A DNA stretch of 64,000 nt from Parapedobacter lycopersici (lineage in GTDB: Bacteria > Bacteroidota > Bacteroidia > Sphingobacteriales > Sphingobacteriaceae), in the NCBI RefSeq assembly GCF_024643285.1, contig NZ_JAMSLW010000003.1, positions 310,001 through 374,000 of the forward strand. Reading direction: 5' to 3'. The notes under the pieces were generated by a model. It did not search any database. It had not been told where the DNA came from and saw only the letters and a list, made by a program, of their open reading frames with translations. How positions within the stretch are numbered: the stretch's first letter is position 1; every line of letters starts with the position of its first letter. Shown here piece after piece: positions 6,904 to 56,721 of the stretch. A program made the position numbers and the translations under genes.

Positions 6904-6977
6904 TCGCTTTGACCGATTTGTTCAATTTCTGGTTTTATCCTTCCCGTACCTTTATTCCAGGTTTTAAATTGAAAAAT

Positions 6978-7130
6978 ATGGAAAACGAAGTTTTGGTATT
7001 TGGAACCTGTTTAACCCCCGATGACAGCTACGCCATCCGGATAGCGATGGCCTTAATCATAACCATTGGGTTGATCGCCTGTGCCTTTCCTATGAACGAG
7101 ATTCCGGTACGCATGGGCGTTACGAAATAG
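6978..7130 (+). CDS. Possible small membrane protein (50 residues)
   Basis: From an ATG at 6978 there is a 50-codon ORF with one strongly hydrophobic segment (AIRIAMALIITIGLIACAF). The frame continues upstream to a TTG at 6909, just after the AraC stop. I recognise no family. It may be a real single-span membrane peptide or chance coding in a 300-bp gap between two AraC genes. Confidence 0.25.
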   Translation: MENEVLVFGTCLTPDDSYAIRIAMALIITIGLIACAFPMNEIPVRMGVTK

Positions 7131-7215
7131 AAATAACGGCTAAGCGTATCCGGGATTTCCTGTCCCTCCTGCAAAGCCGGTGCGGCGGAATCCGTCGAAA
7201 AGTGTAACTTCGGGC

Positions 7216-32017: not shown

Positions 32018-33763
32018 TCAGTTAATTTGTACGATTGAACCTTTAATTGTTGTCGTTCCGCTGGACTTAGCTTCGAGGCTTGCCGAGCCTTCTGCCGTAA
32101 ATCCCGTGTTGGCTTTCATATTCACATTCATTCCTTCGGCTTCAAAATCCTTTTGCGCTTTCAGGGTGATTTTTCCTTGTGTTTCAATGGTAATGCCGTT
32201 GCTGTCCATGGTGATGGCGTTGTTATGGTCGTCTTCCAGTTTGATCAGGTCGGCATCTTCGTCCATCGTGATTTTTTTTCCAGCCGGGGTTTCAATAATC
32301 AACGATTTTTTATTGTCGTTAAAGATCACCTTCATCTTGCTCCGTGTGACGATCCCTTTTTCATGATTTTCATCCGATGCCTGCAGTGGGGCAGGTTTGG
32401 CGCTGCTGTTGAGCATGCCCAGCACCACCGGTTGGCGTGGGTCATCGTTCAGAAAACCGACGATCACCTCGTCGCCAACTTCCGGGAGGAAAAAGCTTCC
32501 CCTTTCGTCTCCGGCATCGAGCGTGGCCACGCGGGCCCAGATTCCCTGTTCATCAGGGTTGATGATCGGCAGGCGCACCAATATCCTGCATTCACTGTCC
32601 GGATCGCTTTCCAACTGCGATACCAGCCCAATCTGCAAGCCGGAAACAGCCGGAATCAATGCCGAAGCGGGCCTGATGCTGGTCTCAAATTTCTCGGTAA
32701 ACCAATCAGGTTCCAGCCCCAGCTGCGCATCGAGCTGCCAGTTCCCGGCAATGATGGTATGCTGTATGCCACTTACAAAAGCTTTCCCATTAAAACGGTC
32801 GCTCAGGCTGTTCAGCTCGACCAGCATGCCCGGCTTAAGCGTATGCACGCCCTTGAACCGCACCCGGCCGCGAACCTTACTCAACACCTGTTTCAGCTTT
32901 AAGGTATCGGCCCAAGCCTTCAGTTCCTGTTGCGGAATATTGCCTCCATGATTCAGGTTGATGTCGTCGGAAAATACATTGGCCAAATCGCTCACCGTCA
33001 GGTTCCCGTTAAGTTCCGAAGGCGCCTGTGCTTCAGCTTCGTCTATGGCCTGGTCGGCCGGTGTCCACGATCGACTTTTGATTTCTGGGTGCTGATTACG
33101 TGCATCGATTTCGGCATCCAGCTCCAGTATAGTCGCGCCGAAAGTCAGCGGCAGGGCAGTACCCTGCGAAAGGTCAGGCTTTTTGACAACCAGGGTTCCA
33201 TCGTCCGTATATACCAGTTTACCATTCACTTCGGCTCGGTTGACGATGAAATCCCAGTCAGAAGCCTCATACTGGATCAGGTTTTTGTGCGAAGTATCGG
33301 TTGTTTCAATATCCGTGTTCAGGCCGCTGTAATCGCGGGCTATCTCGCTGATCGCATCGCTGTCTTTCGTATTGTCAGGAAAATACTTGCTCCGGCGAGA
33401 CAAGGTCATGGCGATGGCTTTATCCCGGCATTCGACAACCAGTTTAGATGTGCCAGTTCTGATCTTAATGGCATGTTTAATGATTATTCCCTTAAACAAG
33501 GTATACGTGTCTGATTCGTATCCGCAGGCAATTTCAATTTCCTTGCCGGGAATAAACAGGTTTTCGTTGCTGGCTTTGAACTGCTCACCGGCAGCATCGC
33601 CGTCAATGAAGATCACCCGCGCTGAGGAGATGCGGTTAACCGCCTTTTCCACCACAATGCTCTCGATATTAAACGTACGTGCAATCTCCGCTCCGTCAAT
33701 TTTAATAAGGGGAGTAACAACAGTACTGGGGCGCGTGGTTTCTATGATCCGGCTGTCTGGCAT
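32018..33763 (-). CDS. VgrG/gpV-like spike protein of a contractile injection system (Afp8-like)
   Basis: A 581-residue protein. The N-terminal gp27-like hub covers about residues 1-370. The gp5-like OB fold follows at about 380-480 (EVGDEVIVGFLNDDPRQPVV is diagnostic). The C-terminus is a repetitive beta-helix of GKITLKAQKDFEAEG type. The size and architecture match eCIS and Bacteroidota spike proteins rather than phage ones. It begins 3 bp after the LysM-like ORF. Confidence 0.87.
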   Translation of the reverse strand: MPDSRIIETTRPSTVVTPLIKIDGAEIARTFNIESIVVEKAVNRISSARVIFIDGDAAGEQFKASNENLFIPGKEIEIACGYESDTYTLFKGIIIKHAIKIRTGTSKLVVECRDKAIAMTLSRRSKYFPDNTKDSDAISEIARDYSGLNTDIETTDTSHKNLIQYEASDWDFIVNRAEVNGKLVYTDDGTLVVKKPDLSQGTALPLTFGATILELDAEIDARNQHPEIKSRSWTPADQAIDEAEAQAPSELNGNLTVSDLANVFSDDINLNHGGNIPQQELKAWADTLKLKQVLSKVRGRVRFKGVHTLKPGMLVELNSLSDRFNGKAFVSGIQHTIIAGNWQLDAQLGLEPDWFTEKFETSIRPASALIPAVSGLQIGLVSQLESDPDSECRILVRLPIINPDEQGIWARVATLDAGDERGSFFLPEVGDEVIVGFLNDDPRQPVVLGMLNSSAKPAPLQASDENHEKGIVTRSKMKVIFNDNKKSLIIETPAGKKITMDEDADLIKLEDDHNNAITMDSNGITIETQGKITLKAQKDFEAEGMNVNMKANTGFTAEGSASLEAKSSGTTTIKGSIVQIN

Positions 33764-33765
33764 CT

Positions 33766-33987
33766 TTATTTGGCTAAGGGTGGAAACTTGATCTTTGTTC
33801 GTTTAGCGAGGTAGCGAAAGTTTTGGAGCTTATTTACTTTCGCCACTTCGATGTAATATTTCGAGTCGCCATAGATTTGGTAGCAGAGCAGCGGCAGGGT
33901 ATCGCCCTCGTTAACCACACGCACGTGGGTCAGATCGGGCGAGCTGGCATTTTCCTGGACATAAACGCCCGGTGTTTTATAGGCCAT
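33766..33987 (-). pseudogene. Chimeric LysM protein: sheath N-terminus fused to Afp7-like C-terminus
   Basis: A 73-codon ORF. The first ten residues, MAYKTPGVYV, match the start of the sheath protein at 35447. The remainder (ENASSPDLTHVRVV, then GDTLPLLCYQIYGDSKYYIE) is the C-terminal LysM part of the injection-system protein that is normally about 220 residues long. The codons differ from the sheath gene's, so the donor was a diverged sheath paralogue. The simplest reading is a deletion that joined a second sheath gene's start to the LysM gene's end. It may be translated. Confidence 0.7.
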
Positions 33988-33998
33988 GATCTTGGTTA

Positions 33999-35447
33999 TT
34001 AAGGAGTTTGAACCATTTTGTGACTAAAGCGCAGAATAATGAATTCAGCAGGCCGTACCACGGCCATTCCGATTTCGACAATCAGGCGCCCTTCAAGAAT
34101 ATCCAGCGCGGTCATGGTTTCGCCGAGCCCGACTTTGACAAAAAAGGCTTCTTCCGGTTTGGCGCCCTGTAAGGCACCAGCCCGCCATTGCAGCGTCAGG
34201 AAATTTTCGATCATGCCGCGCACTTTCGACCAGGTATTGCCATCGTTCGGCTCGAAAACAAAGGGTTCCGTTGATTTTTTTACCGACTCTTCCACCATAT
34301 TAAAGAACCGCCTGACCGAGATATAACGCCATTCATTATCATTCCCGGCCAGCGTACGTGCACCCCAGACCAAAATACCCTTTCCGCTGAAAGCGCGGAT
34401 GGCATTTACCGATTTTCCGGTGCTGGTTACGTTCATATCGGTCTGATCTTCGTCATCAATTTTCACCATCGGCTCTTTCACCAGGTTCAGACTCACATTG
34501 GCCGGAGCCTTCCACACGCCGCGGGTATTGTCTACATAGGCATAAATGCCCGCTACAGCCGGTGATGGAGGTGCAATAATGGTAAACTTACTAATCTCCT
34601 TATGGATAACATTATAGAGATCACTGTTCACGTGGTAGATGGATGCGGTTGGGTTCTCATCGTCCCGGAGCACAGCATTGTTGGGAATTTCGGCCGCCGA
34701 AGCGCCTGTTCCCCTTACAACGGGCTGCAGTTTTTCATTGAGCGCATAGGGCAGTGTGGTTCTGAGCCACGGATAATAAGCCGCACCATAGCTGAGGTTA
34801 TTTACACCTATCTTTGTCCTGAAATCAGTCGCCAGGTCGGCAAACGACTTAATCCCCTTATCTGCGGCATCGATATAGAGATCAACCAGTACGACGCGGT
34901 CTTTCAGAAAGGCGGCCTGCGCAAGCCCCTTGGAGGTATAAAGTCCGTAATATTGATCGATGGTCAGTGTCAATGCGTCCGTCATCAGCAGCATGGTCGG
35001 TTCATCTTCCTTTTGCAGGGCGTCAAATGCTTTTTCAAAATCAGCCAACGCCGGATCAACCGCCGCACCTGTCTGTCCGCACGAGGCGATATAGCAAGGT
35101 CCACCTCCATTGGCATAAAACAATTGCAGGCTATAGTATAACCTGAATTTCAAGGCAGAAAACGGGTCTGTAATCGCTCCGTCGGTCACGAAACGGTTAC
35201 CCCTTTTATTGATCTTCAGGCCGGTTGCCCCCGCTGTGCTGAAAACGGTGTTTTCGGCAAACCCGAAAACCTCCTCGTACTCCTTCAGCGATTTGATCCG
35301 CGTCGGTTTGTAAAGTAGTGGTAAACCATTGTACGAAATATTTTGTGTATAGCCGATAAAGGCTGGGATTGCCGTTTCGACTTCTGCTACAGATGGTGGG
35401 AGACGTGGGGTTTCTTCTACATAGACACCGGGGGTTTTGTATGCCAT
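33999..35447 (-). CDS. Contractile tail sheath protein (Afp2/3-like)
   Basis: A 482-residue protein. It starts MAYKTPGVYVEETPRLPPSV and ends GRLIVEIGMAVVRPAEFIIL with RFSHKMVQ, both hallmarks of contractile sheaths of extracellular injection systems. Full length for the family. No tube gene (Afp1/5) lies beside it, which would be required for a working device. Confidence 0.88.
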   Translation of the reverse strand: MAYKTPGVYVEETPRLPPSVAEVETAIPAFIGYTQNISYNGLPLLYKPTRIKSLKEYEEVFGFAENTVFSTAGATGLKINKRGNRFVTDGAITDPFSALKFRLYYSLQLFYANGGGPCYIASCGQTGAAVDPALADFEKAFDALQKEDEPTMLLMTDALTLTIDQYYGLYTSKGLAQAAFLKDRVVLVDLYIDAADKGIKSFADLATDFRTKIGVNNLSYGAAYYPWLRTTLPYALNEKLQPVVRGTGASAAEIPNNAVLRDDENPTASIYHVNSDLYNVIHKEISKFTIIAPPSPAVAGIYAYVDNTRGVWKAPANVSLNLVKEPMVKIDDEDQTDMNVTSTGKSVNAIRAFSGKGILVWGARTLAGNDNEWRYISVRRFFNMVEESVKKSTEPFVFEPNDGNTWSKVRGMIENFLTLQWRAGALQGAKPEEAFFVKVGLGETMTALDILEGRLIVEIGMAVVRPAEFIILRFSHKMVQTP

Positions 35448-40545: not shown

Positions 40546-42048
40546 CTAAGCGAAAAACCCATGGATAAACCACCGCTTGGGGCGTTCATCGTCATAATGC
40601 CCCGAGCGGAACAGCCAGTACCGTCGGCCCTGGTCGTCCTCCACATAGTAGTAATCCCGGTGCTCGCCTTCGTCCATCCACCATTCACGTGCAATACGCT
40701 CGGGTCCATCCGCCCTTTTTACCTGGTGCACCGTGCCCTGGTACCGGAATACCATGGGTGGGTAATCCGGTATGGGCGCCGTTACATCTATCGGTTCCGG
40801 CCTGGCCAGCAGCCGCACGGGCCGGGGCCGGTCAGTGCGCCAGGCACTGGCAACCGGCTCGCTAATGGCCGTTGCCCGCCTGATCGACCGTTCCGGCCAG
40901 TGGTGCTCGTCGGGCAGGTAACGGCTTACCGTACAGCAGTTGTCCCTGCCCGTCAGCCGGTCCAGCAGCTCGGCCAGTGCGGTATCTCCAAGCCCCTGTT
41001 CGCTGCCCCACAGCGCTTCCTGCACCGGGTCCGCATCTTCCACCTTCGGTGCCTGCAATACAAACAGCTCAATGCCCAGGCCCGGTTCCAGCAGGGGTGT
41101 TTTCAGCGCGAAAAGCTTAAACAGGTGTGCGGCGTTGGCCGTAGCGCGGTTGGTGCCGATAGCTACCTGCACGGTTTTGCCATCAATGCGATAACCCATC
41201 AGCGTCGCCTTTCGCAGTCCCTTGCCCTCGCCGAGCAGCCGTCGGCATAAGGTCTCCAGTAGCCGTTGTACCGCAATCTCAATTCCGGTGGCCGTGCAGA
41301 TGGGTTCCAGGCAGGGCAGCCGCTCCTCATACGGAGGCACCGGCTGCAGGGGCTGCAGGTATTCCGCCTCCTGGCCCAGCGCCTGCCGCAGCCGTAGCAG
41401 CAGCCCGTCACCAAAGCGCCGGCGCAGCACGGCCGGTGGCATGCCCATAAATGTGCCGATAGTGCGGAGCCCTAATTTCTCCAACCGCAGCAGCACCTCC
41501 GGCGGCAGGCGCAGCGCGGCAGGAGGGAGGGCAGGCAGGATGTCCAGCTGGGTACCCCGTTTTACAATAGCTGCCCCCGTCCCGAAGCGCGCTACCGCCC
41601 AGGCAGTGCCGATGGTATCGGCAATGGCTATCCGCACCTGATAGCCCTTACTGCCCAGCCGGGTAGCGATCTCTTCGAGGTATAACTGCTCACCGCCCCA
41701 CAGATGCGCGCAGCCGCTGATATCCAGTGTCAGTCCGTCGGGTGGGGCTACGGCCACCGTAGGCGTATAGCGGATGCACCACAACCCCAGCGCTTTCAGC
41801 AGCCTGCCGGCCAGCCCCGGCCGGTCGTCCAGCACCAGCAACTGCGGCACGGACGCCCGGGCATCCGCCGCCGCCATTCCGGCGGTTACACCCTGCGCCT
41901 CCGCCGCTGGGCTAACCGCTGATATCACCATGCGACCATGAACGGGTGCCGCAAGGGCAAAAAGCCCGCCCCGCAGTTCCGGCCGGCGGATAGCCAGCCA
42001 GTCCGTCGTTAAATAACGGAACCATATGGCAGCAAAGCGTCCTGTCAT
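40546..42048 (-). CDS. imuB: ImuB, inactive Y-family polymerase of the mutasome
   Basis: A 500-residue protein of Y-family fold. The palm region reads IWFRYLTTDW at the first catalytic position and LTLDISGCAHLWGGE at the second, so the acidic metal ligands are missing, as in known ImuB. In Caulobacter, Pseudomonas and Mycobacterium ImuB is a hub that links DnaE2, ImuA and the beta clamp. The C-terminal part (about 410-500) ends with YYYVEDDQGRRYWLFRSGHY, the DUF6504-type tail. It starts 6 bp after imuA stops. Confidence 0.9.
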   Translation of the reverse strand: MTGRFAAIWFRYLTTDWLAIRRPELRGGLFALAAPVHGRMVISAVSPAAEAQGVTAGMAAADARASVPQLLVLDDRPGLAGRLLKALGLWCIRYTPTVAVAPPDGLTLDISGCAHLWGGEQLYLEEIATRLGSKGYQVRIAIADTIGTAWAVARFGTGAAIVKRGTQLDILPALPPAALRLPPEVLLRLEKLGLRTIGTFMGMPPAVLRRRFGDGLLLRLRQALGQEAEYLQPLQPVPPYEERLPCLEPICTATGIEIAVQRLLETLCRRLLGEGKGLRKATLMGYRIDGKTVQVAIGTNRATANAAHLFKLFALKTPLLEPGLGIELFVLQAPKVEDADPVQEALWGSEQGLGDTALAELLDRLTGRDNCCTVSRYLPDEHHWPERSIRRATAISEPVASAWRTDRPRPVRLLARPEPIDVTAPIPDYPPMVFRYQGTVHQVKRADGPERIAREWWMDEGEHRDYYYVEDDQGRRYWLFRSGHYDDERPKRWFIHGFFA

Positions 42049-42054
42049 CGTACA

Positions 42055-42810
42055 TCACCCTGTTCGTTGTTCCGGCACCAGCCGTTCCGGCAGTGCCACC
42101 GTCTGTTTGTGCGGGTCAGCCACCGGAGCAAACCGGCCTGCAGCCCATTCCAGTGTCCAGGCCCCCGGACTGCCATTGCGCACTTTTAGCAGTTCCACCC
42201 GCCAGCGGGGCAGTCCCACGCCCGGCATCCCCGCCTCCGGCGCGCTGGGAGCCGGACTAACCTGCCAGCGGGCAGCACAGGCCGTATTGCCTATGCGGAG
42301 CGGCTGGCTGCGCAGCACAAAGCCCGTCACGCGGCTTTGCTCCACGGCCAGCTGCAGCCGCCGCGACTGCGCAAAATCCAGCTCGCGCAGCTCGGCCACC
42401 ACAGCCGCCAGGCCGCTGCACTTAAGCGCTTCCTCCGTGGCCCATAAAATATCTCTTTCGCGTTTCATATCAATAAAAACAATGCGGTCCGGCGTTACGC
42501 CAAAAGCCCCGATCGCCGGGGGGAAAAGCGTCCGCGATGCACTGATCCAGAGGCACACACCTTCCTGCCGCATAAGCCGGGTCAGCAGCCCCCCGATAAA
42601 CCCGCTGGAAGCCGCTGCCTGCTCCGGGGCCGCAGCGATAAACTCGTGGATGCTGCCGGCGGGAAACACCCCGTTCGGAAATGCCCGTTCCACCGGCCCC
42701 AGGCTCATGCGCACAGTATGCCTGGCCGTTGCCTGATAGCCCTGCCAATGCAGCATTTTCCGCTGCAACTGGCTGATTACCTCCCTTTTGTTTTCCGCTG
42801 TTACTATCAT
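42055..42810 (-). CDS. imuA: ImuA, RecA-like mutasome accessory protein
   Basis: A 251-residue protein. FPAGSIHEFIAAAPEQAAAS is the ImuA/SulA-type version of the RecA fold, without a normal Walker A, and FVLRSQPLRIGNTACAARW matches the conserved second half. ImuA is required for DnaE2-dependent mutagenesis in species that carry it. First gene of the imuA-imuB operon, divergent from dnaE2. Confidence 0.88.
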   Translation of the reverse strand: MIVTAENKREVISQLQRKMLHWQGYQATARHTVRMSLGPVERAFPNGVFPAGSIHEFIAAAPEQAAASSGFIGGLLTRLMRQEGVCLWISASRTLFPPAIGAFGVTPDRIVFIDMKRERDILWATEEALKCSGLAAVVAELRELDFAQSRRLQLAVEQSRVTGFVLRSQPLRIGNTACAARWQVSPAPSAPEAGMPGVGLPRWRVELLKVRNGSPGAWTLEWAAGRFAPVADPHKQTVALPERLVPEQRTG

Positions 42811-42841
42811 GGCTCCATCCGTTACCCTCCTGGGCAGTAAG

Positions 42842-42866
42842 CAAAGTTAACACTAATAATATTAGT
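42842..42866 (-). promoter_or_regulatory. imuA promoter -7 box with operator copy 1
   Basis: On the minus strand TAACTTTG (42849-42842) is a TAnnTTTG box 32 bp before the ATG. Immediately upstream is a perfect inverted repeat, ACTAATA-a-TATTAGT (42852-42866), whose core is CTAAT-N3-ATTAG. A repressor bound there would block the promoter. Confidence 0.65.
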
Positions 42867-42928
42867 AATAAACTGTTTTGTTTAATATTGTTTTTATCTA
42901 AATTATTGAAACACCACTAAATCAATGC

Positions 42929-42959
42929 TTGACGGCTAATATAATTAGTAATATATTTG
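42929..42959 (+). promoter_or_regulatory. dnaE2 promoter with operator copy 2 between -33 and -7
   Basis: TTG (42929-42931) and TATATTTG (42952-42959) are 20 bp apart. CTAAT-ATA-ATTAG (42936-42948), the same core as copy 1 and followed by the same TAATA, sits between them. It is the natural place for SOS-type repression of the mutasome; the regulator is not in the window. Confidence 0.65.
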
Positions 42960-43005
42960 TCCAATACACCCGAAATTGCCAATAATATGGCTTAAAACGT
43001 GCAGT

Positions 43006-46149
<3,144 letters not shown>

Positions 46150-46346: not shown

Positions 46347-46676
46347 ATGAGCGATTGGCAAACCCTTATCAACAAACTCAAGGAATTCAATGAAGCGCGC
46401 GATTGGGCACAGTTTCATAATGCCAAAGACCTGGCGTTGGCCTTAAGCATTGAAGCCGCCGAGTTAAACGAACTTTTCTTGTGGAAGAAAGCCGAAGAAG
46501 CCGATCCCGAAAAAGTCAAAGAAGAACTGGCTGATGTATTTGCCTTTGCCCTGCAGCTTGCCGCCAAATATAACCTGGATGTCAACCAGATTGTGTTAGA
46601 TAAAATTGCCAAAAACGCAACCAAATACCCGGTAGAGAAAGCCAAGGGCAGCGCTACCAAGTATACCGACCTATGA
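46347..46676 (+). CDS. MazG-like nucleotide pyrophosphohydrolase
   Basis: A 109-residue all-helical protein with SIEAAELNELFLWK and KEELADVFAFALQLA, which supply the E-x-x-E and E-x-x-D metal sites of MazG/RS21-C6. It hydrolyses nucleoside triphosphates to monophosphates. A TATCTTTA box lies at 46315-46322, near the consensus. Its stop overlaps the next ATG by 4 bp (ATGA), so it is coupled to the DUF2075 protein. Confidence 0.87.
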   Translation: MSDWQTLINKLKEFNEARDWAQFHNAKDLALALSIEAAELNELFLWKKAEEADPEKVKEELADVFAFALQLAAKYNLDVNQIVLDKIAKNATKYPVEKAKGSATKYTDL

Positions 46677-48544
46677 TTGTTTACAGCCGAACAAAGGAGG
46701 ATTTCAGTAATGATATCCTCACCAATGATATAGACCACATCATTTCACAGCATTTGCTTGAGAAAGCCGGGCTTCGTGTAGCCCAGGCCGAACTCAATGC
46801 CTTCAAGCATTCGCTGGGCTATATGGAGCGCGTCATGAGCGATCGCGATATTCCGGACGATTGCGGTATCAGCATTGAATACCACATCCCGCAAACCTCC
46901 AAGCGCATTGATTTCATTATTAGCGGTACCGATGGCGCGCAGGAAAACGTAATCATTGTAGAGCTTAAGGGATGGAAAAGCGCAAGCCTTACCCAAAAAG
47001 ATGGGCTGGTGGTTACCCAATACAAAAAGGGCCTTGCCGAAACAAGCCACCCAGCATACCAAGCCTGGTCATACGCCGCGCTATTGCAGGCATTCAACGC
47101 TACCGTGCATGAAGAAAACATCCAGCTGCACCCCTGTGCTTACCTGCATAACTATGTGCCGGATGATGTTATTGCAAATCCCTTTTATGACTACTACCTC
47201 AAAAAGGCACCCATCTTTCTTAAGCCAGATGCATTGCAGCTGCGCGCTTTTATCAAGCAGTTTATCAAACAGGGCGATAAGGCCAATATCCTATACCGTA
47301 TAGACCACGGCAAAATACGCCCCACCAAAACACTTGCCGATAGCCTAAAGAGCATGATTCAGGGCAACAAAGAATTTCTGATGATCGATGATCAGAAAGT
47401 CGTCTATGAAAATGCGAAGAACCTTGCCCTGCATTCGCACGAGCAAAATAAAAACGTACTCATCGTAGAAGGCGGGCCGGGAACCGGTAAATCCGTCATT
47501 GCCGTCAACCTGCTCATCAACCTCATTCGCAGCGGCAAGATGGCGCAGTATGTAACCAAAACCTCCGCTCCGCGCGATGTCTATTTCGATAAACTTTCCG
47601 GCGAGCGGAAAAAGGTAGAGCTACGGTCGCTCTTCGTCGGCTCCGGCTCCTACATCCACGCGTTACCCAACAGTATATCTACGCTTATTGTAGATGAGGC
47701 ACACCGCCTTACCAAACAAACCGGCCCCTACCGGAACGGAGAGGATCAGATCAAAGAGATTCTGCGTACTGCCTGCTGTTCCATCTTTTTCATAGATGAA
47801 AACCAGCGTGTACACATCGATGACTATGGCGATATCGCGCGTATCGAGCAGTTTGCTGGCGAGATGGGCATTAAGGTACACAAGCTGCAATTGGAGTCAC
47901 AGTTCCGCTGCAACGGTTCGGACGGCTACCTAGCGTGGGTAGATCACGTGCTTCAAATCCGGGACACGGCTAACCCCGTATTTTCAGCCGCTGATTTTGA
48001 GTTTGATTTCCGGGTAATGGACAATCCTAAGGCGTTACAGGAGCTTATTTATGAGAAGAACAAGGAAGCGAATAAGGCCCGCTTGGTAGCTGGGTATTGC
48101 TGGGATTGGGACAGTAAGAACAACAAGTCAGCCTATGATATCGAATTCCCCGAATACGATTTCCGCATGCGATGGAATTTGAAGGATTATGGTGGCCGAT
48201 TCATTATCGATCCCGGTTCGGTTACGGAGGTAGGCTGCATCCACACGGCCCAAGGCTTAGAGGTAGACTACATCGGTGTCATCGTAGGTGATGACCTTAT
48301 CGTTCGCAATGGTGAAGTACTGGTAGACCCCAAGCAACGCTCCTCGATGGATAAAAGCATCCATGGGTGGAAGAAAATGATGAAGGAACGGCCGGAACAT
48401 GCTAAATCCCTTCTCCGGGCAATCATCAAAAACACCTATCGTACCTTGCTTACGCGAGGGATGAAAGGTTGTTATGTTTATTTTACGGATGAGGAAACGG
48501 CGGCGTATTTTAGGGAGCAGATAATAGGTCAAGAATTACGATAG
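46673..48544 (+). CDS. DUF2075 ATPase/helicase with N-terminal nuclease-like domain
   Basis: A 623-residue protein. About residues 60-110 show KRIDFIISG and NVIIVELKGWKS, a PD-(D/E)xK-type arrangement. Walker A is EGGPGTGKSV, Walker B is TLIVDEAHRL, and QLESQFRCNGSDGYLAW matches DUF2075 motif III. The last part includes HTAQGLEVDYIGVI, like superfamily 1 helicases. Often found in defence islands; direct substrates are not known. Strictly coupled to the MazG-like gene. Confidence 0.85.
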   Translation: MIVYSRTKEDFSNDILTNDIDHIISQHLLEKAGLRVAQAELNAFKHSLGYMERVMSDRDIPDDCGISIEYHIPQTSKRIDFIISGTDGAQENVIIVELKGWKSASLTQKDGLVVTQYKKGLAETSHPAYQAWSYAALLQAFNATVHEENIQLHPCAYLHNYVPDDVIANPFYDYYLKKAPIFLKPDALQLRAFIKQFIKQGDKANILYRIDHGKIRPTKTLADSLKSMIQGNKEFLMIDDQKVVYENAKNLALHSHEQNKNVLIVEGGPGTGKSVIAVNLLINLIRSGKMAQYVTKTSAPRDVYFDKLSGERKKVELRSLFVGSGSYIHALPNSISTLIVDEAHRLTKQTGPYRNGEDQIKEILRTACCSIFFIDENQRVHIDDYGDIARIEQFAGEMGIKVHKLQLESQFRCNGSDGYLAWVDHVLQIRDTANPVFSAADFEFDFRVMDNPKALQELIYEKNKEANKARLVAGYCWDWDSKNNKSAYDIEFPEYDFRMRWNLKDYGGRFIIDPGSVTEVGCIHTAQGLEVDYIGVIVGDDLIVRNGEVLVDPKQRSSMDKSIHGWKKMMKERPEHAKSLLRAIIKNTYRTLLTRGMKGCYVYFTDEETAAYFREQIIGQELR

Positions 48545-48656: not shown

Positions 48657-49688
48657 TCATGTAAACGACGCAGTCTGTAGGTGATTTAGGGATATGTCAA
48701 AATATCGTTCATTAGAGAACATACTTCTTTTTCGTTGGCTCCAACTTTCTAAATAAGCCTGAACGACCTGCTTTTCAAATGTTCTTTCTTTTTTTACGAT
48801 ATAATCGATTGACGATAATAATTCTAATCCAAAGTCCGAATAAAACCCCTCAAGGAAGCGCATCGTTTTCTTAGCGATTTCCAAAAGTTCAGGTCTACTT
48901 TCAATATAAGATTTTACTGTCTCATAACCATCGGCCACTAAAGTCAATGGCTCGAAAGCCTTTTTGTCTTTATCGCTATATCCCATGATGTAGCTGCCAT
49001 TCAACGCATATAATACATGACGTACTTTTCCTGAATAAGGACCATAAAAATTAGGTTGAAAATCTAGTTTAAAATATTTCTTGGCTCCGAAGCGCTGTAA
49101 AAAATAGCAAACCTTTTCACACGAGAATTCCGATACATACTCTCCATTTTTAACAAGGTCGTAAAGTACATACAAAAGCAAAGCCCTTGCCGCTGTCAAT
49201 TTTGTTCGTTCCTTTTTTAAATACTCTTTTATCTGTGTTGTTGGTTCAAATACATATATATCTGTATCCAAATGTCCAAGTTTAACCTCAATTATTCTTT
49301 TCACGTTCTCCCATTCAAGCCCTCCATTTCCGGCACCAAGAGGAGGTATAGCTATGCTTCTTATGTTGTATTCATTTATTGTCGAGACCAACTTATCGAG
49401 TCCCACTTCAATAAAAGAATACTCAGAAGGTCTTCGCCAGTCTTTTTTTGTAGGAAAGTTGATAATTAATTTCTCGCCAGCGTCGAGATTACTATCATGT
49501 GTCACTAAAAGCTTACCAATTTCAACTTCTCCGTTTTTACAAGCTTCAGCGTAAGCTTTGAAATTACTTGGAAATGCTTTTTTGAATTGCAAAGCGATAC
49601 CTTTGCCCATGACGCCTACAGTATTCACTGTATTTACCAATGCCTCGGCATCGCTTTCTAAGATATTACCTTTTAGATATTTAATCAT
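48657..49688 (-). CDS. darG: DarG, macro-domain antitoxin
   Basis: A 343-residue protein from ATG 49688. The macro domain (about 1-150) has KGNILESDAEALVNTVNTVG and PPLGAGNGGLEWENV. It removes ADP-ribose from thymidine on DNA. The C-terminal part (about 170-340) matches the DarG extension that binds and blocks DarT. It starts 7 bp after darT stops. An upstream extension from 49721 overlaps darT and is rejected. Confidence 0.9.
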   Translation of the reverse strand: MIKYLKGNILESDAEALVNTVNTVGVMGKGIALQFKKAFPSNFKAYAEACKNGEVEIGKLLVTHDSNLDAGEKLIINFPTKKDWRRPSEYSFIEVGLDKLVSTINEYNIRSIAIPPLGAGNGGLEWENVKRIIEVKLGHLDTDIYVFEPTTQIKEYLKKERTKLTAARALLLYVLYDLVKNGEYVSEFSCEKVCYFLQRFGAKKYFKLDFQPNFYGPYSGKVRHVLYALNGSYIMGYSDKDKKAFEPLTLVADGYETVKSYIESRPELLEIAKKTMRFLEGFYSDFGLELLSSIDYIVKKERTFEKQVVQAYLESWSQRKRSMFSNERYFDISLNHLQTASFT

Positions 49689-49695
49689 CGTCTTG

Positions 49696-50352
49696 TTAAT
49701 AATACGCTCGGGGTACCACATTTATTGTTTCTTCGTTGATACCGAATGCCATAAGCTTTCTTTTTGCGCCTTCATTGTAACATCCTATCGATGCAATAAA
49801 ATCAGAGGGCAAATCATTTTCTACTAAAAGCTCAGCTTGCTTTTTACGCTTAAGATTTAAGTTTTCCTGACCACTCCAATAAGAAGCTCGTACAGCCGAC
49901 CAATCAATAATAGAGGACAACTCATTTATTTTGTCGCGATTATAAAATGTAGTGAAACCATCAGTTGCATGCCCATCTGTAAAATAGAAATTAAAACCCG
50001 AGTCGACAATTTTAGAAACTGAACACGCTAAATATATAATTTCTTCCGCAGGTGTTGCTCTCTCAACAAAATTACCTCCAATTTGCATGACATACAACAT
50101 TGGCATCCTTACCCCAAAATAAAATGGGATAAAATCGCCTAATACAATCGATGGCGGGTCAATTATTGTGTAATCTCCATTGTTTATGAAAACTTGTTTT
50201 ATATTCCTGGTATTAATTAACGTAACGTCGCCAATAGTAATGAAATGTGGATTTGCATTAGGCGATTTATAATGGGTAATTCCGTATTGCAGCAAATGAG
50301 GGACATTCTCTATATGCGTCATGCGGTATACTTTTATATTCGCTAATTCCAT
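49696..50352 (-). CDS. darT: DarT, DNA-targeting ADP-ribosyltransferase toxin
   Basis: A 218-residue protein. The opening VYRMTHIENVPHLLQYGITH is the DUF4433 signature, and KRKKQAELLVEND carries the catalytic Glu. DarT adds ADP-ribose to thymidine in single-stranded DNA; DarTG systems act in phage defence. AT-rich DNA, like the rest of this block. Confidence 0.9.
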   Translation of the reverse strand: MELANIKVYRMTHIENVPHLLQYGITHYKSPNANPHFITIGDVTLINTRNIKQVFINNGDYTIIDPPSIVLGDFIPFYFGVRMPMLYVMQIGGNFVERATPAEEIIYLACSVSKIVDSGFNFYFTDGHATDGFTTFYNRDKINELSSIIDWSAVRASYWSGQENLNLKRKKQAELLVENDLPSDFIASIGCYNEGAKRKLMAFGINEETINVVPRAYY

Positions 50353-50451: not shown

Positions 50452-51390
50452 TTACAGATCTAAGGTGAATTGCCTTTCAGGATTTACTTTATCTTGATAC
50501 GCTTCTTTTTCTGTCAATTCAATTGGCAACGCTTGTGTTGCAAGAGCTGTAGTGTAATGCTTATTCACCCACACAACTTCAATTCTCTCTTGTACTATAC
50601 CCTTGGAACCCTTGGTTGACGCCTTTATTTCACGACGGCTCCACCCATTATTTTCGCTTAACAATAAGTCATACAAGTCGTTGTGATATCCGCTAATGAA
50701 TATCATACAATTTGCTTGGTTTGCTAAGTTTAAAAGTTTTGTATGGTACTCTTCGTCGTTAGCGTCCCAAGTATATCCATTCGCCCTGTCTCCTAAATAG
50801 GGTGGATCTAAATACACCAGTGTCGCAGGACGATTAATAAATCTTTTAAGAATGGTAAGTGCATCCTTATTTTCGATACGTACACTTTTAAGTCGATCCA
50901 CTACTGCCTTAAGTCGTTTTGGAAGGTTATTCCAACGATTTACTCGGGCGTCATGTCCGTTTCTAGTGTACGAGTCAGTGTAGGAAAACCCCCCTTTCTC
51001 CTTACCGAACACCCCATTAATTGCCATCATGGCTTGTACTAAAAAGCGCCTTGCCCGTTCGAGATCGCTAATGCCTTCGGATTCTTTTCTTGCTTCAATT
51101 AATTCTTGCTCCGCGTATGGCGTTAATTCAATAGCCTCGCACAATGCCTTATCACGGTCGCGCAACTGCCTAAATAAGTTTACAATTTCGCCATCAATAT
51201 CATTAATTATTTCAATAGGAGCCGGTGCTTTTCGCAATGTTAACGAAGCTGATCCACAGAAAGCCTCTACCCAACAATTATGAGGAGGCAAGTTACTACA
51301 TAGCTCCAGTGCTATTTTATTTTTAGAGCCAAAATATCCAAATGGAGGACTTATTTTTTTATTACCTCTTTTTGTATTATTATTTTTCAA
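50452..51390 (-). CDS. D12-class adenine-N6 DNA methyltransferase (Dam-like)
   Basis: A 312-residue protein. PPFGYFGSKNKIALELCSNL is the SAM-binding start and LVYLDPPYLG is the DPPY catalytic motif. Such enzymes methylate adenine at GATC-type sites in many species; the target here is unknown. It starts at TTG 51390 after an A-rich stretch, 9 bp beyond the helicase stop; no ATG start is available. Last gene of the defence operon. Confidence 0.87.
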   Translation of the reverse strand: MKNNNTKRGNKKISPPFGYFGSKNKIALELCSNLPPHNCWVEAFCGSASLTLRKAPAPIEIINDIDGEIVNLFRQLRDRDKALCEAIELTPYAEQELIEARKESEGISDLERARRFLVQAMMAINGVFGKEKGGFSYTDSYTRNGHDARVNRWNNLPKRLKAVVDRLKSVRIENKDALTILKRFINRPATLVYLDPPYLGDRANGYTWDANDEEYHTKLLNLANQANCMIFISGYHNDLYDLLLSENNGWSRREIKASTKGSKGIVQERIEVVWVNKHYTTALATQALPIELTEKEAYQDKVNPERQFTLDL

Positions 51391-51399
51391 TTTTTTCTT

Positions 51400-53292
51400 C
51401 TAATTCCTTTTGAATAACCGTTTGTATGCCGTCACGTCATCATCTGCACTGTGGTACAAATCTAAGTCGTATATTTCATAATCTTGCTCAATAATATCAT
51501 ACATCTTTTGAGCCTTATTGTTGACATTAGCTATTATGTCTTGATCAATTGAATTTTCATATTGTAAAAAATAATAATGAGCCTGGTTGAATTCAGATCC
51601 TCCTACCCGGTGTATCCTATCTAGCGATTGGATATATTGAGCTGCATTATAAGATAAATCATAGTATATTGCATGAAAACATGTCTTATGCAGTGATATA
51701 GATTCTGCACATGCTGCAGGGTTGGCAATTAAAATATTTAACCCACTTTTAGGATCAACAAATTCGTCCCGAATATCTTCTCTTGTTTTTTCATCATCAA
51801 TTTCTATTACATTGTTTTTCCTGACCGGTGTTTTTCCATAAATAAGTTCACAATTTTCGCCCCTCGATAGAAAATGACTTTTAATCAATTCTAATGTGCC
51901 GATAAAATTTGACCAAATCAATACTTTTTGATCATTCGCCCGTAATTTGGTGACCAAACTAGTCAGCTCTAATAGCTTGTTAGGAATTTCTAGCCTATCA
52001 TACGAATGAATTTTAAGAGCTAAATTTGAATCTCTTACTATGTCCTCTGCGTATTCATCAATGGCAGAAAGCAATAATTTTGGATAGGACACCGCCTGAC
52101 GTAATCTCATCATTCTTCCTCTCCATAATTTATTCAATACCTCTTCATTTGTGAAGTAGTCGCCTTCTGCAAGGTCAAAAAGTCTTGCCTTAATATACTG
52201 ATAGATGTTTTCTTCGACTACGTTCATTTTAAGCACAATCGGCGGGTGAAATATGGGGGGAATAAGCCCTAAATCATTTTTGCGAACACGGTAAAATAAT
52301 GGGCCTATTTTTTTATGAAGTAATTCCTTTATCTGCTCATTCCTTTTTTGTTTTTCCCATAATTCAATTTGTATTTTGTCATCCTCAGTTAGAGGAGATT
52401 GGTGTTGCCATAAAAAATCAAAAAGATTAAAAATATCTCTGTAACTTTTCGGAATAGGTGTACCTGTTAAAATACATTTATATGATGCATGTTGCCCAAT
52501 TTTAAGTAGAGAATTTGCCCACGATCCTCCGATTTGTTTCATGTAATGGGCTTCATCGACTATTAAAAAAGCGAAAACGCCCCGCTGGGAAAGAAATTTA
52601 GCTATTTCAAGGTAGTCATTTAATGCAGTTTGAAAGGTGCATAGGTACAGCTCGCAAGAATCTTTTTGGGATTTAAAGTACTCGGAACGTCTGAACTCTT
52701 TGGTGTTGCCAGATAAAATTACAGAATCGCTGTCGCGGCCAAGTGTCGCCTCAAACTCGTGTCTCCACGGTTGAAAACATGAGGGAGGACCGATGATAAA
52801 TAAGGTGTTGCATTTGCCTTCAATACGGAGTTTCTCATATACAGAAAGTACTACTGAAGTCTTCCCACTACCAGGCACTGAAAAATTAGCGCCGTTTCCA
52901 ATACTATATAAATGATATGCTGCTTTTATTTGATGATCCTTTAGTTTCCGCGGTAGCTTAGTGAGGAATAAATTAAAGTTATCAAATGATTGGGCTTTTA
53001 TTTTTCCATTTTTAATCTCTTGAGCGTTTTTAAATATTTTTGTGATTTCTTTGTTTTGTTTGTCAAAGTCTTCCAAAAAATTGATAGCACCTTCTGTTAC
53101 GGTAACATTAATTCCTTCTTGTTCAAAATAAGCAACCATTTGAGCAAGGTCGGTGTTGAAATTGCTTGACTCCTTTTGTAATGTAGATTCAATGTGTTTA
53201 AAACCATAAAAATACAATTGAGAGACTTGATATTTTTTTAAATCTTCAATACCACTAATAATAATGGAAGTATTATGAATTGCAATTTTCAC
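51400..53292 (-). CDS. SNF2-family helicase (DEAD/DEAH box, SF2)
   Basis: A 630-residue protein. Walker A is FSVPGSGKTS, motif II is LIVDEAHYMK and motif III is ILTGTPIPKS. The C-terminal lobe carries SLDRIHRVGG (motif VI). The first 110 residues are unlike known families. It starts at GTG 53292, directly after the TAG of the HNH gene, with no gap. SNF2 helicases in R-M-like systems move along DNA and are often partners of nucleases. Confidence 0.87.
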   Translation of the reverse strand: MKIAIHNTSIIISGIEDLKKYQVSQLYFYGFKHIESTLQKESSNFNTDLAQMVAYFEQEGINVTVTEGAINFLEDFDKQNKEITKIFKNAQEIKNGKIKAQSFDNFNLFLTKLPRKLKDHQIKAAYHLYSIGNGANFSVPGSGKTSVVLSVYEKLRIEGKCNTLFIIGPPSCFQPWRHEFEATLGRDSDSVILSGNTKEFRRSEYFKSQKDSCELYLCTFQTALNDYLEIAKFLSQRGVFAFLIVDEAHYMKQIGGSWANSLLKIGQHASYKCILTGTPIPKSYRDIFNLFDFLWQHQSPLTEDDKIQIELWEKQKRNEQIKELLHKKIGPLFYRVRKNDLGLIPPIFHPPIVLKMNVVEENIYQYIKARLFDLAEGDYFTNEEVLNKLWRGRMMRLRQAVSYPKLLLSAIDEYAEDIVRDSNLALKIHSYDRLEIPNKLLELTSLVTKLRANDQKVLIWSNFIGTLELIKSHFLSRGENCELIYGKTPVRKNNVIEIDDEKTREDIRDEFVDPKSGLNILIANPAACAESISLHKTCFHAIYYDLSYNAAQYIQSLDRIHRVGGSEFNQAHYYFLQYENSIDQDIIANVNNKAQKMYDIIEQDYEIYDLDLYHSADDDVTAYKRLFKRN

Positions 53293-55191
53293 CTATTTTG
53301 CCTTTTTGCCCAAGGAGTTGTATTTTCCTCGTTCCTTATCTATTAATTCATATAGTTCATCTGCCTTAGCTGAGATGTCTCTACAAAAGCCAAGAGCAAG
53401 TTTGTAATTTTCAACGCCCAGTTCATCAATTTTCATGTTTTCGTGATTCAACTTTTTCAAAGAGTCTTCTAGTAATTCAAGTGGCTTTATTCTTTCTATA
53501 TGATTATTGACCGCTTTATAGGCTTTCATTAGATTACCTAATACGCCTTTTTTAACAGCGGTTGTGTTAGACCATTTTTCATCGATCTCTCTTTCACTGT
53601 ATCTATTACCTTCTTTATCGAACTTTTCGCTTTCAGGGATATCTTCATCTACCTCTTTAGCTATATTTATCAAATGTTTTTTTGCACTATCATTACCTAA
53701 ATATTTTTTTAAATTGCCTCCTCTTACAAAAGCATGGACTTTACCCAGTGCTTTTTCTATCTCTGTTGATTTTAAATTTCTTTTGCGAATAATTTTAAAA
53801 ATGGCATTTTCTATTAAGCCTATCTCTGATTCAATTATGCCAAATTTTATTCTGGCTGTGGGGTTGTTTAAAGTGCTATAGTAAAAATTGCTATAATCAA
53901 TAAAAGCTTGCCATCTTCCTTCCTTATCACCCGCACTTTCCGAAATAGTGTTATATAATCCCTCTCTATTAAACGTCTTTAAATACCTATCCACACATTC
54001 AAGAGGCAGCAAATATTCTTTCTCAAAACGTTTTTCAATCGTATTCAATTCTTGTGGGGCTTTATCAGAATACTGAGGATCATCCATTAGCTGAGCCCTT
54101 AACGAATAGTTTTCTTTAATATTTTCTCTAATCGTTAATGCTCTGTTTAGACCATGGTATTCTGACTTTCCATCATCCTGTAATTGATACCTGTTTTCAA
54201 TCCTTTTAATGTCAAATAATGACACATTTTCGGGTAGGATAACTACCCTCATTTTCTCGAATTTTGAATTTTTATGATGTTCTTCATAAAGTTCTTCAAG
54301 AATCATTTTGCGCCTATTGCCATTTATTAAAAATCCGTCACAGGTAATTATTGCGGGTTGTAGTTGCCCCTTATGTTTTATTTGCTGTTTTAATACCTCT
54401 TTCTTTTCTGGATCATTTTTACTTAGAAAACCTCTTAATAAGTCTTGTGTTGCATCACTTAATTCATCCAGCAACCCATTAATTTTTTCATAGCTTTCAA
54501 CTTCCGCCTTAATTCGACCATTCTCCTTTCTAAATTTTAATTCTTTAACTGGTAATTCATATATTTTACTTGTTTTGCCCTTAAACAGATTGTTTTGAAA
54601 ATCGATGACGTCTTCAGTGGGCGGTGTTGCATCGTCTCTCAGCTTGTCTAATTTCTCTTTCAAACTTTTATTTACTGAGCGCATAGGCTCAGTAAATGAA
54701 AATTCCTTCTCTTGCGTGGATGATTGAAAAATGTTCTGAGTACCAATCTGAGTGCCAATAATTTGATGTTTGGCTTGGTTATTAAATTGTGTTCCAGAGC
54801 CCTCATTTTTGTTATGTTTTTCCATATATTTATGAATTGCTTGGTCAACGATATTATCTGTTACTGAAAGTTGCTCTCTCACGAATTTTTCCTCGTGCAA
54901 TGATTTATATTTTCGTAATTCGGGAGATGGGTATTTTTTAACATCATTAGTAATTTTATGATGAATTGGACAAAGCAGGATTAAGTTTTCAAAACTTCTT
55001 CTATAATCATCATTAGAATCCTTATTAAACCTTTCACCTCCTTGCTCGGCCGCCTCTATGTGGCAAATTTCTCCAATTACTATTCCCGAGCTTTCCACGA
55101 TATGTTGATCACACCCAGGGAAAGCGCATTGATTGCCAGATAGTGCAAAGAGCTTTTTAATAACAGATGGTTTTAGTTGAAGCCGTGCCAT
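53293..55191 (-). CDS. HNH nuclease fused to a ParB/sulfiredoxin-like domain
   Basis: A 632-residue protein. The N-terminus (about 1-100) is an HNH unit with zinc-binding Cys22, Cys27 and Cys74 and the H-N-H set His44, Asn69 and His78 (NLILLCPIHHK). The middle has ILPENVSLFDIKRIENRYQL after a ParB-like NGNRRK motif, typical of ParB/Srx nuclease-ATPase folds. The C-terminal 250 residues are helical and unfamiliar. The fusion is unusual. The domain calls rest on motifs; the ParB-like call is weaker than HNH. Confidence 0.7.
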   Translation of the reverse strand: MARLQLKPSVIKKLFALSGNQCAFPGCDQHIVESSGIVIGEICHIEAAEQGGERFNKDSNDDYRRSFENLILLCPIHHKITNDVKKYPSPELRKYKSLHEEKFVREQLSVTDNIVDQAIHKYMEKHNKNEGSGTQFNNQAKHQIIGTQIGTQNIFQSSTQEKEFSFTEPMRSVNKSLKEKLDKLRDDATPPTEDVIDFQNNLFKGKTSKIYELPVKELKFRKENGRIKAEVESYEKINGLLDELSDATQDLLRGFLSKNDPEKKEVLKQQIKHKGQLQPAIITCDGFLINGNRRKMILEELYEEHHKNSKFEKMRVVILPENVSLFDIKRIENRYQLQDDGKSEYHGLNRALTIRENIKENYSLRAQLMDDPQYSDKAPQELNTIEKRFEKEYLLPLECVDRYLKTFNREGLYNTISESAGDKEGRWQAFIDYSNFYYSTLNNPTARIKFGIIESEIGLIENAIFKIIRKRNLKSTEIEKALGKVHAFVRGGNLKKYLGNDSAKKHLINIAKEVDEDIPESEKFDKEGNRYSEREIDEKWSNTTAVKKGVLGNLMKAYKAVNNHIERIKPLELLEDSLKKLNHENMKIDELGVENYKLALGFCRDISAKADELYELIDKERGKYNSLGKKAK

Positions 55192-55212
55192 AAAAAAGAT
55201 TGATTTGTTATT

Positions 55213-56310
55213 TTAGCTAGTAAGACCATATTTTCTTGCATAATACAAATAAGAAAAAGGCGAGTTCCTTATCGCTGCCCTACGTTGGTTTCTGTTTTCG
55301 ATATGGGAATAGCCAATTTGTAGAGTTGCAACAGTAGCTAATCCAAATCCAGTAACATCAAATGGTAGCATTAACAACCCGGCTTTGCTTAAACCTCCTG
55401 CTGCTGCTAAAAGAGTCGTTGGTGATCTTATATTTATCAGTGATGTTAAGGACTTACCAACATGACTAATATTTGAATCCGCTAAAACATCGGATATATC
55501 TCTAACTCCCAAAGAAATTGTGTCTTGGAAGTTGAATGATATTTCCTTCAGTTCAGATAACGAAGTCGAACTTGAAATTTTACTATTAAATTCTGATAAT
55601 AATAATCTGAAACTTTTCAAATTGTCTATTCGTCTACGCTTAAAATCAATAATTTTCTCTAAAGGTACATTTTCGGCGGGGGTGGGAAGTATATTATTGA
55701 GTGCTACTCTTATAGCCGGGAATCCTTCTTTTTTAGCCACTCGTCTAAAATTTAGAGTTTCATATGCATTGGCATCTGTCCCTATTGTCATCTGCTCGGG
55801 ATTAATATCAGCAAGGTACTTCGCCAGCAAAGACATATATATTAATCCCGTGTTGTTTTCAAAACTCAGCCATTCGGGGTCTTCTTGTCTATTTGCTAAT
55901 CCTCGCTCTGCAAGGAAATCATAAATTTGATATGTCGTTTTACTAGCATGTATTCTTGATTGTTCACCAATTCTTAACTTATCCTGATGAATGTTGTACG
56001 TCACGGGTTTGCTTAGCCTATTTACTACCCGTAAAAATCTTTCGTTTAGAATAATTTCTTTAAATTCATCAACGAAATCATTTAAAAATTCATAAGAGTT
56101 AGGACTGGATAACAAGGATTCCGGATCTATTGATCGATATTGGCCCTCGTCAATTAAATAACGTATGTCTGTCGATAGGAATTCATCTTCTCGACCTGAA
56201 AAAGTTCTCGGGACGATTGAGCAGACTTCATCCCAGTACATCAAGGCATTTCTAAGCCAAGTTGAGCTGGGGATATTTATTTTTGGGTAATATAGAATTG
56301 ACCTCTTCAT
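55213..56310 (-). CDS. DUF6236-like protein of the defence operon
   Basis: A 365-residue protein starting MKRSILYYPKINIPSSTWLR and containing ALMYWDEVCSIVPRTF, a pattern I associate with DUF6236. A hydrophobic stretch (about 300-330) includes LLAAAGGLSKAGLLMLPFDV. No enzyme motif is seen. It starts the four-gene operon, 22 bp before the HNH-ParB gene. Function unknown; the DUF assignment is uncertain. Confidence 0.55.
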   Translation of the reverse strand: MKRSILYYPKINIPSSTWLRNALMYWDEVCSIVPRTFSGREDEFLSTDIRYLIDEGQYRSIDPESLLSSPNSYEFLNDFVDEFKEIILNERFLRVVNRLSKPVTYNIHQDKLRIGEQSRIHASKTTYQIYDFLAERGLANRQEDPEWLSFENNTGLIYMSLLAKYLADINPEQMTIGTDANAYETLNFRRVAKKEGFPAIRVALNNILPTPAENVPLEKIIDFKRRRIDNLKSFRLLLSEFNSKISSSTSLSELKEISFNFQDTISLGVRDISDVLADSNISHVGKSLTSLINIRSPTTLLAAAGGLSKAGLLMLPFDVTGFGLATVATLQIGYSHIENRNQRRAAIRNSPFSYLYYARKYGLTS

Positions 56311-56423
56311 CTGATAGTTCTCAATTTCATATAAGAATTAAATAAACACCCAATCACTCCTATGCCATTCAGGATTTCTCATTTAGGTTGCAGAATTTAG
56401 GTTAATGATTGGTTGGGGCTTTA

Positions 56424-56678
56424 TCACCCCTTAATATTTCGTTTAAATTGCTCATACGTTATCATCGTACTTTTAGACCAGTTACTCTCGTATAAAAGTT
56501 CCCGGATATCAACCCTTAATAGCTCGGCTATCTTGTTTAGGTCACCCAAAGTCGGTTGCCTTCTATTATTGCGCCATTTTGAAACAGTGCCTTCTGATTT
56601 TTTCACATAATTTGCAATCACTCTATTAGTGATTTTCCTTTCTTCGAAAACTTCGTCAAGACGATTAATAATAGCCAT
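56424..56678 (-). CDS. XRE-family HTH regulator of the defence operon
   Basis: An 84-residue protein from ATG 56678. The HTH is IANYVKKSEGTVSKWRNNRR, the Cro/CI type. A palindromic operator lies 23-43 bp upstream of its ATG. It sits 113 bp before the DUF6236-like gene and probably represses itself and the operon. Confidence 0.82.
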   Translation of the reverse strand: MAIINRLDEVFEERKITNRVIANYVKKSEGTVSKWRNNRRQPTLGDLNKIAELLRVDIRELLYESNWSKSTMITYEQFKRNIKG

Positions 56679-56700
56679 CAATAAAATTCTTTTCAATAAA

Positions 56701-56721
56701 GTTTGTCGTTTAACGACCAAC
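56701..56721. promoter_or_regulatory. Palindromic operator upstream of the XRE gene
   Basis: Core GTCGTT-t-AACGAC (56705-56717) is perfect; the extended 21-bp site GTTTGTCGTTTAACGACCAA plus one base is matched at 9 of 10 positions per arm. A partly similar cGACaac/tGTCGTtg pair follows to 56767. Confidence 0.6.

Follow-up and report, generated by a model that had tools for sequence, protein, structure and literature searches.

We analyzed a 64,000-nucleotide stretch of the Parapedobacter lycopersici genome (contig NZ_JAMSLW010000003.1, positions 310,001 to 374,000 of the forward strand; hereafter the window, in whose own coordinates its features are given), where the original prediction had placed a five-gene, restriction-modification (R-M)-like defence operon consisting of an XRE regulator, a DUF6236-like gene, an HNH-ParB fusion, an SNF2 helicase and an adenine methylase. 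Judged by what recurs in other genomes, the conserved unit is made of three genes, not five (50452-55191), and encodes the HNH-ParB protein, the SNF2 translocase and a Dam-family DNA methyltransferase (MTase). The gene content of related loci shows the nuclease to be a replaceable module of this predicted unit, the core remaining constant and the linked enzyme changing. We consider it probable, at roughly 60%, that the unit is a restriction-like defence system licensed by methylation, with ParB and SNF2 detecting unmodified DNA and firing an exchangeable effector. An R-M-like defence reading survives for a conserved unit with intact motifs and patchy carriage, but not for the membership of XRE and DUF6236. 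The genes and domains of the unit are:

53293..55191, minus strand: HNH-ParB fusion, whole gene, 632 amino acids (aa), with full-length homologues in loci L002, L003 and L010 (see below)
54862..55191, minus strand: N-terminal HNH nuclease domain, residues 1-110, resembling effectors of the cyclic oligonucleotide-based antiphage signaling system (CBASS) by PADLOC and PDB matches
54166..54570, minus strand: ParB/Srx-fold domain, residues 208-342, from an AlphaFold model and columns invariant in ten homologues
51400..53292, minus strand: SNF2-family SF2 translocase, 630 aa, GTG start, PF00176 E 1.5e-20
50452..51390, minus strand: Dam/D12-family adenine-N6 DNA MTase, 312 aa, TTG start, PF02086 (MethyltransfD12) E 4e-20

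Scanning genomes for relatives of the HNH-ParB protein yielded nine loci (L002-L010), and four more close ones (L018, L039, L040 and L135) came from profile searches in 1,998 genomes, for a total of 14 with the window. ParB and SNF2 genes are adjacent in all 14. In each of the nine loci of the HNH-ParB scan the SNF2 gene directly follows ParB and a Dam-type MTase lies nearby; such an MTase is found in 13 of the 14 close loci, the remaining one (L135) having a beta-class enzyme. These loci come from Bacteroidota, Planctomycetota, Hydrogenedentota, Neomarinimicrobiota and Proteobacteria, and as ParB, SNF2 and MTase genes are found together in other phyla too, their clustering is not a matter of chance. 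Gene order, by which the original prediction was to be judged, is conserved in other genomes for these three genes, but not for DUF6236 and XRE. We rejected the notion that the methylase is an unrelated orphan, since relatives keep it or swap it for another MTase. The family is carried by few genomes and in a patchy pattern: 2 of 201 in the window's order and, at high similarity, 2 of 395 in its phylum.

The HNH-ParB protein is indeed the fusion that had been predicted, its HNH part being recognizable by sequence and its ParB part by comparison of an AlphaFold model with crystal structures. The HNH domain, which keeps residues C22/C27, H44, N69 and H77/H78, matches PADLOC effector modules, among them CBASS endonuclease effectors and SAVED-HNH proteins, with E values of 7e-24 to 1e-15 (PDC-M68A at 7e-24, the effector "Endonuclease" at 2e-20); among solved proteins it matches the HNH endonuclease 9om4 (E 1e-13) as well as SAVED-HNH chains. 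The conserved ParB core, spanning residues about 170-632, encloses the ParB/Srx fold and carries three motifs that are invariant in ten aligned homologues (GQ 275-276, NGNRR 290-294 and EN 332-333). A ParB family was not matched by Pfam at E 0.1, the ParB part gave nothing significant against solved chains by sequence, and Foldseek with the whole model returned no match under E 0.001; the assignment was made by VIA-align structure comparison together with the motifs. The model has a mean pLDDT (AlphaFold's confidence score) of 69, with the ParB portion mostly at 80-90, and its residues 209-342 superpose on Myxococcus ParB-CDP (7bnk) with Z 11.0 and 1.6 Å over 91 residues. Crystal structures of ParB, Noc and KorB can all be aligned to these residues, Z being 9.9-11.0 for ParB/Noc. 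The modeled fold of residues 209-342 is thus supported as that of the ParB/Srx superfamily. Between the two domains lies a linker, NKNxGxG[TS]QFNNQ...QIGxQ (window 54700-54820, residues about 125-165), conserved in all four fused forms, which may be an oligomerisation or coupling element.

The SNF2 protein consists of SNF2-rel_dom and Helicase_C domains by Pfam, and its closest solved structures are SNF2/ISWI-type motors. Its Walker A (GSGKT, 141-145), DEAH (246-249) and motif VI residues (Q555/R559/R562) are invariant in nine homologues. As for the MTase, it matches PADLOC MTase_II with an E value of 1.5e-52, has its DPPY motif at residues 195-198, and shares FCGS and DPPY invariantly with the other members of a ten-sequence alignment. 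In the predicted proteins of the window, the catalytic motifs of HNH, SNF2 and MTase are intact, as are the ParB motifs.

When scanned for HNH, NOV_C and purine nucleoside phosphorylase (PNP) modules, the 14 close loci fall into mutually exclusive groups of four, eight and two, respectively. HNH is fused to ParB in the window, L002, L003 and L010, and is absent from the ten other loci. A separate NOV_C (DUF3883) gene of about 320 aa follows SNF2 in L004-L009, L018 and L135, as identified by Pfam and profile. In L039 and L040, where neither HNH nor NOV_C was found, a PNP_UDP_1 gene lies directly upstream of ParB, 17 and 3 bp away. The NOV_C proteins show an E...D...ExK set (E189, D221, E239 and K241) that is invariant in 11 sequences from Dam- and C5-linked versions, and their AlphaFold model matches the Holliday-junction resolvase Hjc (Z 9.5, 2.6 Å over 104 residues) and the restriction endonucleases NhoI, DpnI, MspI and SwaI, all with Z values of 7-9.5. 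Modeled fold and catalytic residues together support a PD-(D/E)XK nuclease, and DUF3883 has already been named a novel restriction endonuclease domain in the literature (PMC3710099). The two PNP proteins match the PADLOC CBASS effector "PN-superfamily" (E 4e-25 and 5e-19) and MTA/SAH nucleosidase (MTAN) structures, with MEG and ISD motifs present. In known systems, the Detocs PNP cleaves ATP (PMC11249213), and the HNH protein Cap5 tetramerises and then cuts DNA (PMC12804361).

The MTase varies as well. In L135 (1524-6648), the MTase after ParB-SNF2-NOV_C is a beta-class N6/N4 enzyme (PF01555 E 8e-47) and not a Dam-type one, and a C5 MTase stands beside ParB-SNF2-NOV_C in distant cousins from Bacteroidota (L019-L022) and in prophage Javan191 (L032). 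Vsr accompanies C5 cousins, by Pfam match in L020 and, probably, by eye in L022. The C5-type clusters, which contain ParB, SNF2 and NOV_C, form one side of a branch with 100/100 support (in trees made with L019, L020 and L032) and represent a second, distant system type that is apparently also unnamed. They are located as follows:

L019, 4878-10936: C5-type cluster
L020, 4872-11338: C5-type cluster
L022, 4633-11841: C5-type cluster
L032, 918-6613: C5-type cluster

In L021 (3636-6865), the SNF2 gene of the C5-type locus appears split by transposase-like open reading frames (ORFs). Plasmid members with DUF3883-type genes occur in Rhizobium, Azospirillum, Kozakia and Streptomyces, and in Enterococcus and Limosilactobacillus ParB-SNF2 pairs directly follow type III mod-res genes. 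A protein of about 860 aa is encoded directly upstream of the ParB-SNF2 pair on two Enterococcus plasmids (L033 1831-7506 and L028 1899-7560); it has a sigma-like helix-turn-helix in L033, no MTase was seen adjoining, and it is possibly a further variant. The Dam tree pairs the MTases of L002 (HNH form) and L039 (PNP form) with 100/100 support while their ParB and SNF2 proteins are unpaired, so modules recombine. Since NOV_C occurs in both Dam- and C5-linked groups, it is likely the older effector, with HNH and PNP as later replacements on this phylogenetic distribution. HNH and PNP could have been gained in one event each.

ParB and SNF2 are always neighbors and the effectors are replaced while the core is kept, so a common check for self DNA may drive interchangeable weapons. 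To judge by its family, the Dam-type MTase would mark adenines of the host genome at a target motif. SNF2 and the ParB-fold protein, whose folds and motifs are shown above, would together survey DNA as a complex, with ParB perhaps serving as a DNA clamp or sensor gated by NTP and the SNF2 motor perhaps moving along the duplex. Recognition of incoming unmodified DNA would trigger the effector. In the window this would be the HNH fused to ParB, predicted to cut invading DNA, possibly after Cap5-like oligomerisation; with the plug-in effectors of relatives, some members may degrade DNA and others the nucleotide pool. Several points weigh against this picture. In the model, confidence is low for the HNH part (pLDDT under 50), too poor for a claim about its fold, so the HNH assignment rests on sequence. 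Matches of the SNF2 protein are generic. The PNP loci number two, both from Bacteroidota and with ParB proteins in one clade, so the PNP replacement may be a single event, and the PNP gene is tied to the core by adjacency alone.

R-M is usually seen as DNA sensing and cutting by one dedicated enzyme. In the present case a single kind of ParB-SNF2-methylase core is combined with three unrelated effectors, and one of these is not a nuclease. If the proposed mechanism is true, R-M-type methylation sensing can drive abortive, nucleotide-depleting immunity, and the ParB fold, known as that of a DNA-segregation CTPase, gains a likely sensing role in defence. We advance only tentatively, at somewhat less than even odds, the broader claim of a separate immunity class whose ParB/SNF2 chassis reads methylation, drives at least three unrelated effectors (HNH, PD-(D/E)XK and nucleosidase), abortive nucleotide depletion included, and pairs with at least three unrelated MTase families. 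Such a class would couple an R-M-like distinction of self from non-self to interchangeable effectors in the manner of CBASS.

The strongest competing explanation, which we consider unlikely although it deserves to be taken seriously, is ordinary ATP-dependent R-M, whereby HNH-ParB and SNF2 cut unmarked DNA, ParB is itself the nuclease in L039 and L040, and PNP there is an unrelated neighbor or an Abi add-on. MTase, motor and nuclease do make up the type I/III plan, nuclease activity has been reported for ParB-superfamily domains (PMC5512222), and no more than two PNP loci are known. However, these two loci are divergent, both have PNP immediately upstream of ParB and both are without the other nucleases, and PNP and HNH are established effector modules. 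There is a slim chance that the unit is a mobile-element module and not host defence, serving either in R-M addiction of the post-segregational kind or, like DarB, to modify and protect DNA that is transferred. SNF2-adenine MTase pairs are known in phages and conjugative elements (PMC5512222), and distant cousins, C5-type ones among them, are carried by plasmids and by prophage Javan191; yet the close loci sit on cellular contigs, their dedicated effector slot holds nucleases or a nucleosidase, and viral contigs (IMG/VR) contain no ParB relative, SNF2 retrieving only generic phage helicases at 20-24% identity. Slimmer still are the prospects of a type IV-like reading, in which HNH-ParB and SNF2 attack modified phage DNA in the fashion of GmrSD, the MTase being an unrelated epigenetic or decoy enzyme. 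GmrSD and BrxU do combine a ParB-like DUF262 with HNH (PMC10952713, PMC12839542). Against this, DUF262 and DUF1524, the GmrSD domains, were not matched in the operon proteins at E 0.1, and the domain order is reversed. Moreover, the 13 Dam-type loci retain the MTase, and other members have a different DNA MTase in its place, which fits self-marking and not a bystander. Least of all do we credit the idea that DUF6236 and XRE are working parts of a five-gene operon; in its favor, DUF6236 lies 21 bp from HNH-ParB and shares its strand and composition, but the two extra genes accompany no other locus checked.

No named system in PADLOC, NCBIfam or the papers searched matches the unit as a whole. 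DISARM class 1 (DrmD, DrmMI) and ARMADA likewise have an SNF2-type motor beside an adenine MTase in a defence setting. Unlike them, the unit lacks a DrmA/YprA helicase, DrmB/DUF1998 and a phospholipase D (PLD) nuclease, has a ParB-fold core protein with HNH, NOV_C or PNP effectors, and uses a small, Dam-type MTase that is not PglX-like; its SNF2 is weakly similar to DrmD, at 46.8 bits (cut-off 610), and DrmB and DrmC of the class 1 gene set are not among the scanned neighbors. GmrSD/BrxU type IV enzymes also join a ParB-superfamily domain to an HNH nuclease, but in our unit HNH is of the CBASS-effector type, sits at the opposite end and has the MTase and SNF2 as constant partners. CBASS is characterized by the exchange of its effectors, and related plug-in HNH and PNP modules are found in CBASS Cap5 (HNH-SAVED), in PN-superfamily effectors and in the Detocs PNP. 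The unit differs in having a ParB-SNF2-MTase core and no CD-NTase, SAVED domain, kinase or receptor; no CD-NTase was found among operon proteins and scanned neighbors. Type I/III R-M shares a modification enzyme with ATP-dependent translocating restriction machinery, but HsdR-HsdM-HsdS and Mod-Res families are absent from the operon proteins and scanned neighbors, and the unit has a separate ParB-fold subunit and an exchangeable effector. As in type II R-M, a DNA MTase is encoded beside a nuclease, here a Dam-family MTase in an operon with an HNH or NOV_C nuclease, presumably as a cognate pair, but the conserved SNF2 with intact Walker A and DEAH argues against translocase-free restriction. 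Zorya offers only partial similarity to the ZorD helicase (E 1e-16), with no ZorA/ZorB among scanned neighbors, and BREX PglZ and BrxX/PglX have no match in operon proteins or scanned neighbors. In R-M operons of the Ava_2192 group (PMC3710099), SNF2 occurs with the same NOV_C/DUF3883 nuclease family, but fused to it, noted with HEPN genes and beside an HEPN-AAA+ protein; a ParB-SNF2-MTase core is not described in the sections cited here. The claim that no named system fits was borne out within PADLOC, NCBIfam and the literature searched: neither a name nor a description of the whole system was found in these, in Pfam or in the open-access papers, subscription papers and REBASE lying outside the search. 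The three-gene unit is apparently undescribed, although a name in subscription papers or REBASE is possible. It provides markers for finding many further members, among them the plasmid- and prophage-borne C5/Vsr cousins.

Upstream of the unit lie the two genes that do not belong to it:

55213..56310, minus strand: DUF6236-like gene, 365 aa, PF19749 E 6e-13 in the C-terminal half only
56424..56678, minus strand: XRE-family regulator, HTH_3 E 9e-9

Both are absent from the three other HNH-ParB loci, and a blast search against neighbors in L002-L010, L018, L039 and L040 gave no match; as neither recurs with the core elsewhere, the proposal that they are unit members was rejected. DUF6236 was not found in 199 other related genomes, has two matches on plasmids, both in unrelated contexts, and is not mentioned in the open-access literature searched. 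Not being conserved with the core, the DUF6236-like gene is probably a passenger or a local accessory. XRE more likely starts, judging from the sequence, at ATG 56678 (84 aa) than at TTG 56720. About 26 bp upstream of this probable start lies a palindrome, GTCGTTAAACGAC (56705-56717), a candidate operator for XRE autorepression.

The five ORFs are co-directional on the minus strand, intact and tightly packed in an AT-rich block, and our rereading of the ORFs and junctions agrees with the coordinates and spacing first reported, except in one detail. The TAG of HNH-ParB touches the GTG of SNF2 (0 bp), the MTase starts (TTG at 51390) 9 bp after SNF2, and XRE and DUF6236 are 113 bp apart, but the gap from DUF6236 to HNH-ParB measures 21 bp and not 22. 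The GC profile confirms the AT-rich block (GC 31-39% across 49-57 kb) between GC-richer flanks (57-65% at 41-46 kb, about 50-54% downstream from 58 kb). No convincing flanking direct repeats delimit a mobile unit around the block, a promoter scan of the locus gave scores at background level, and in an empty-site comparison the gene flanking the block downstream had no counterpart in eight other genomes of the genus. Patchy carriage and the AT-rich block would, as expected, fit acquired defence. Known defence genes adjoin the core in two loci, DarTG in the window, as had been claimed, with both components above NCBI curated cut-offs, and AbiE in L010. The neighbors in the window are:

49696..50352, minus strand: DarT toxin, neighboring system, NF048013, 159 bits (cut-off 150)
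48657..49721, minus strand: DarG antitoxin, neighboring system, NF048014, 396 bits (cut-off 250)
46673-48544, opposite strand: Schlafen group 3 helicase adjoining DarTG, with a borderline NERD nuclease match

In Zunongwangia (L010), only 6 bp separate the end of the AbiEi/AbiEii toxin-antitoxin pair (6150-7994) from the HNH-ParB gene that comes after it. Bordering the AT-rich defence block of the window is a cassette (40546-46149, 57-65% GC) that by eye from its ORFs resembles ImuB/DnaE2 mutagenesis genes, and a further DnaE-like ORF, also recognized by eye, lies at 746-3682. Contractile tail-sheath/baseplate-like genes, again identified by eye, occupy 32018-35447, and a tail-sheath gene resembling the window's (L019, 786-2861) adjoins the C5-type system.

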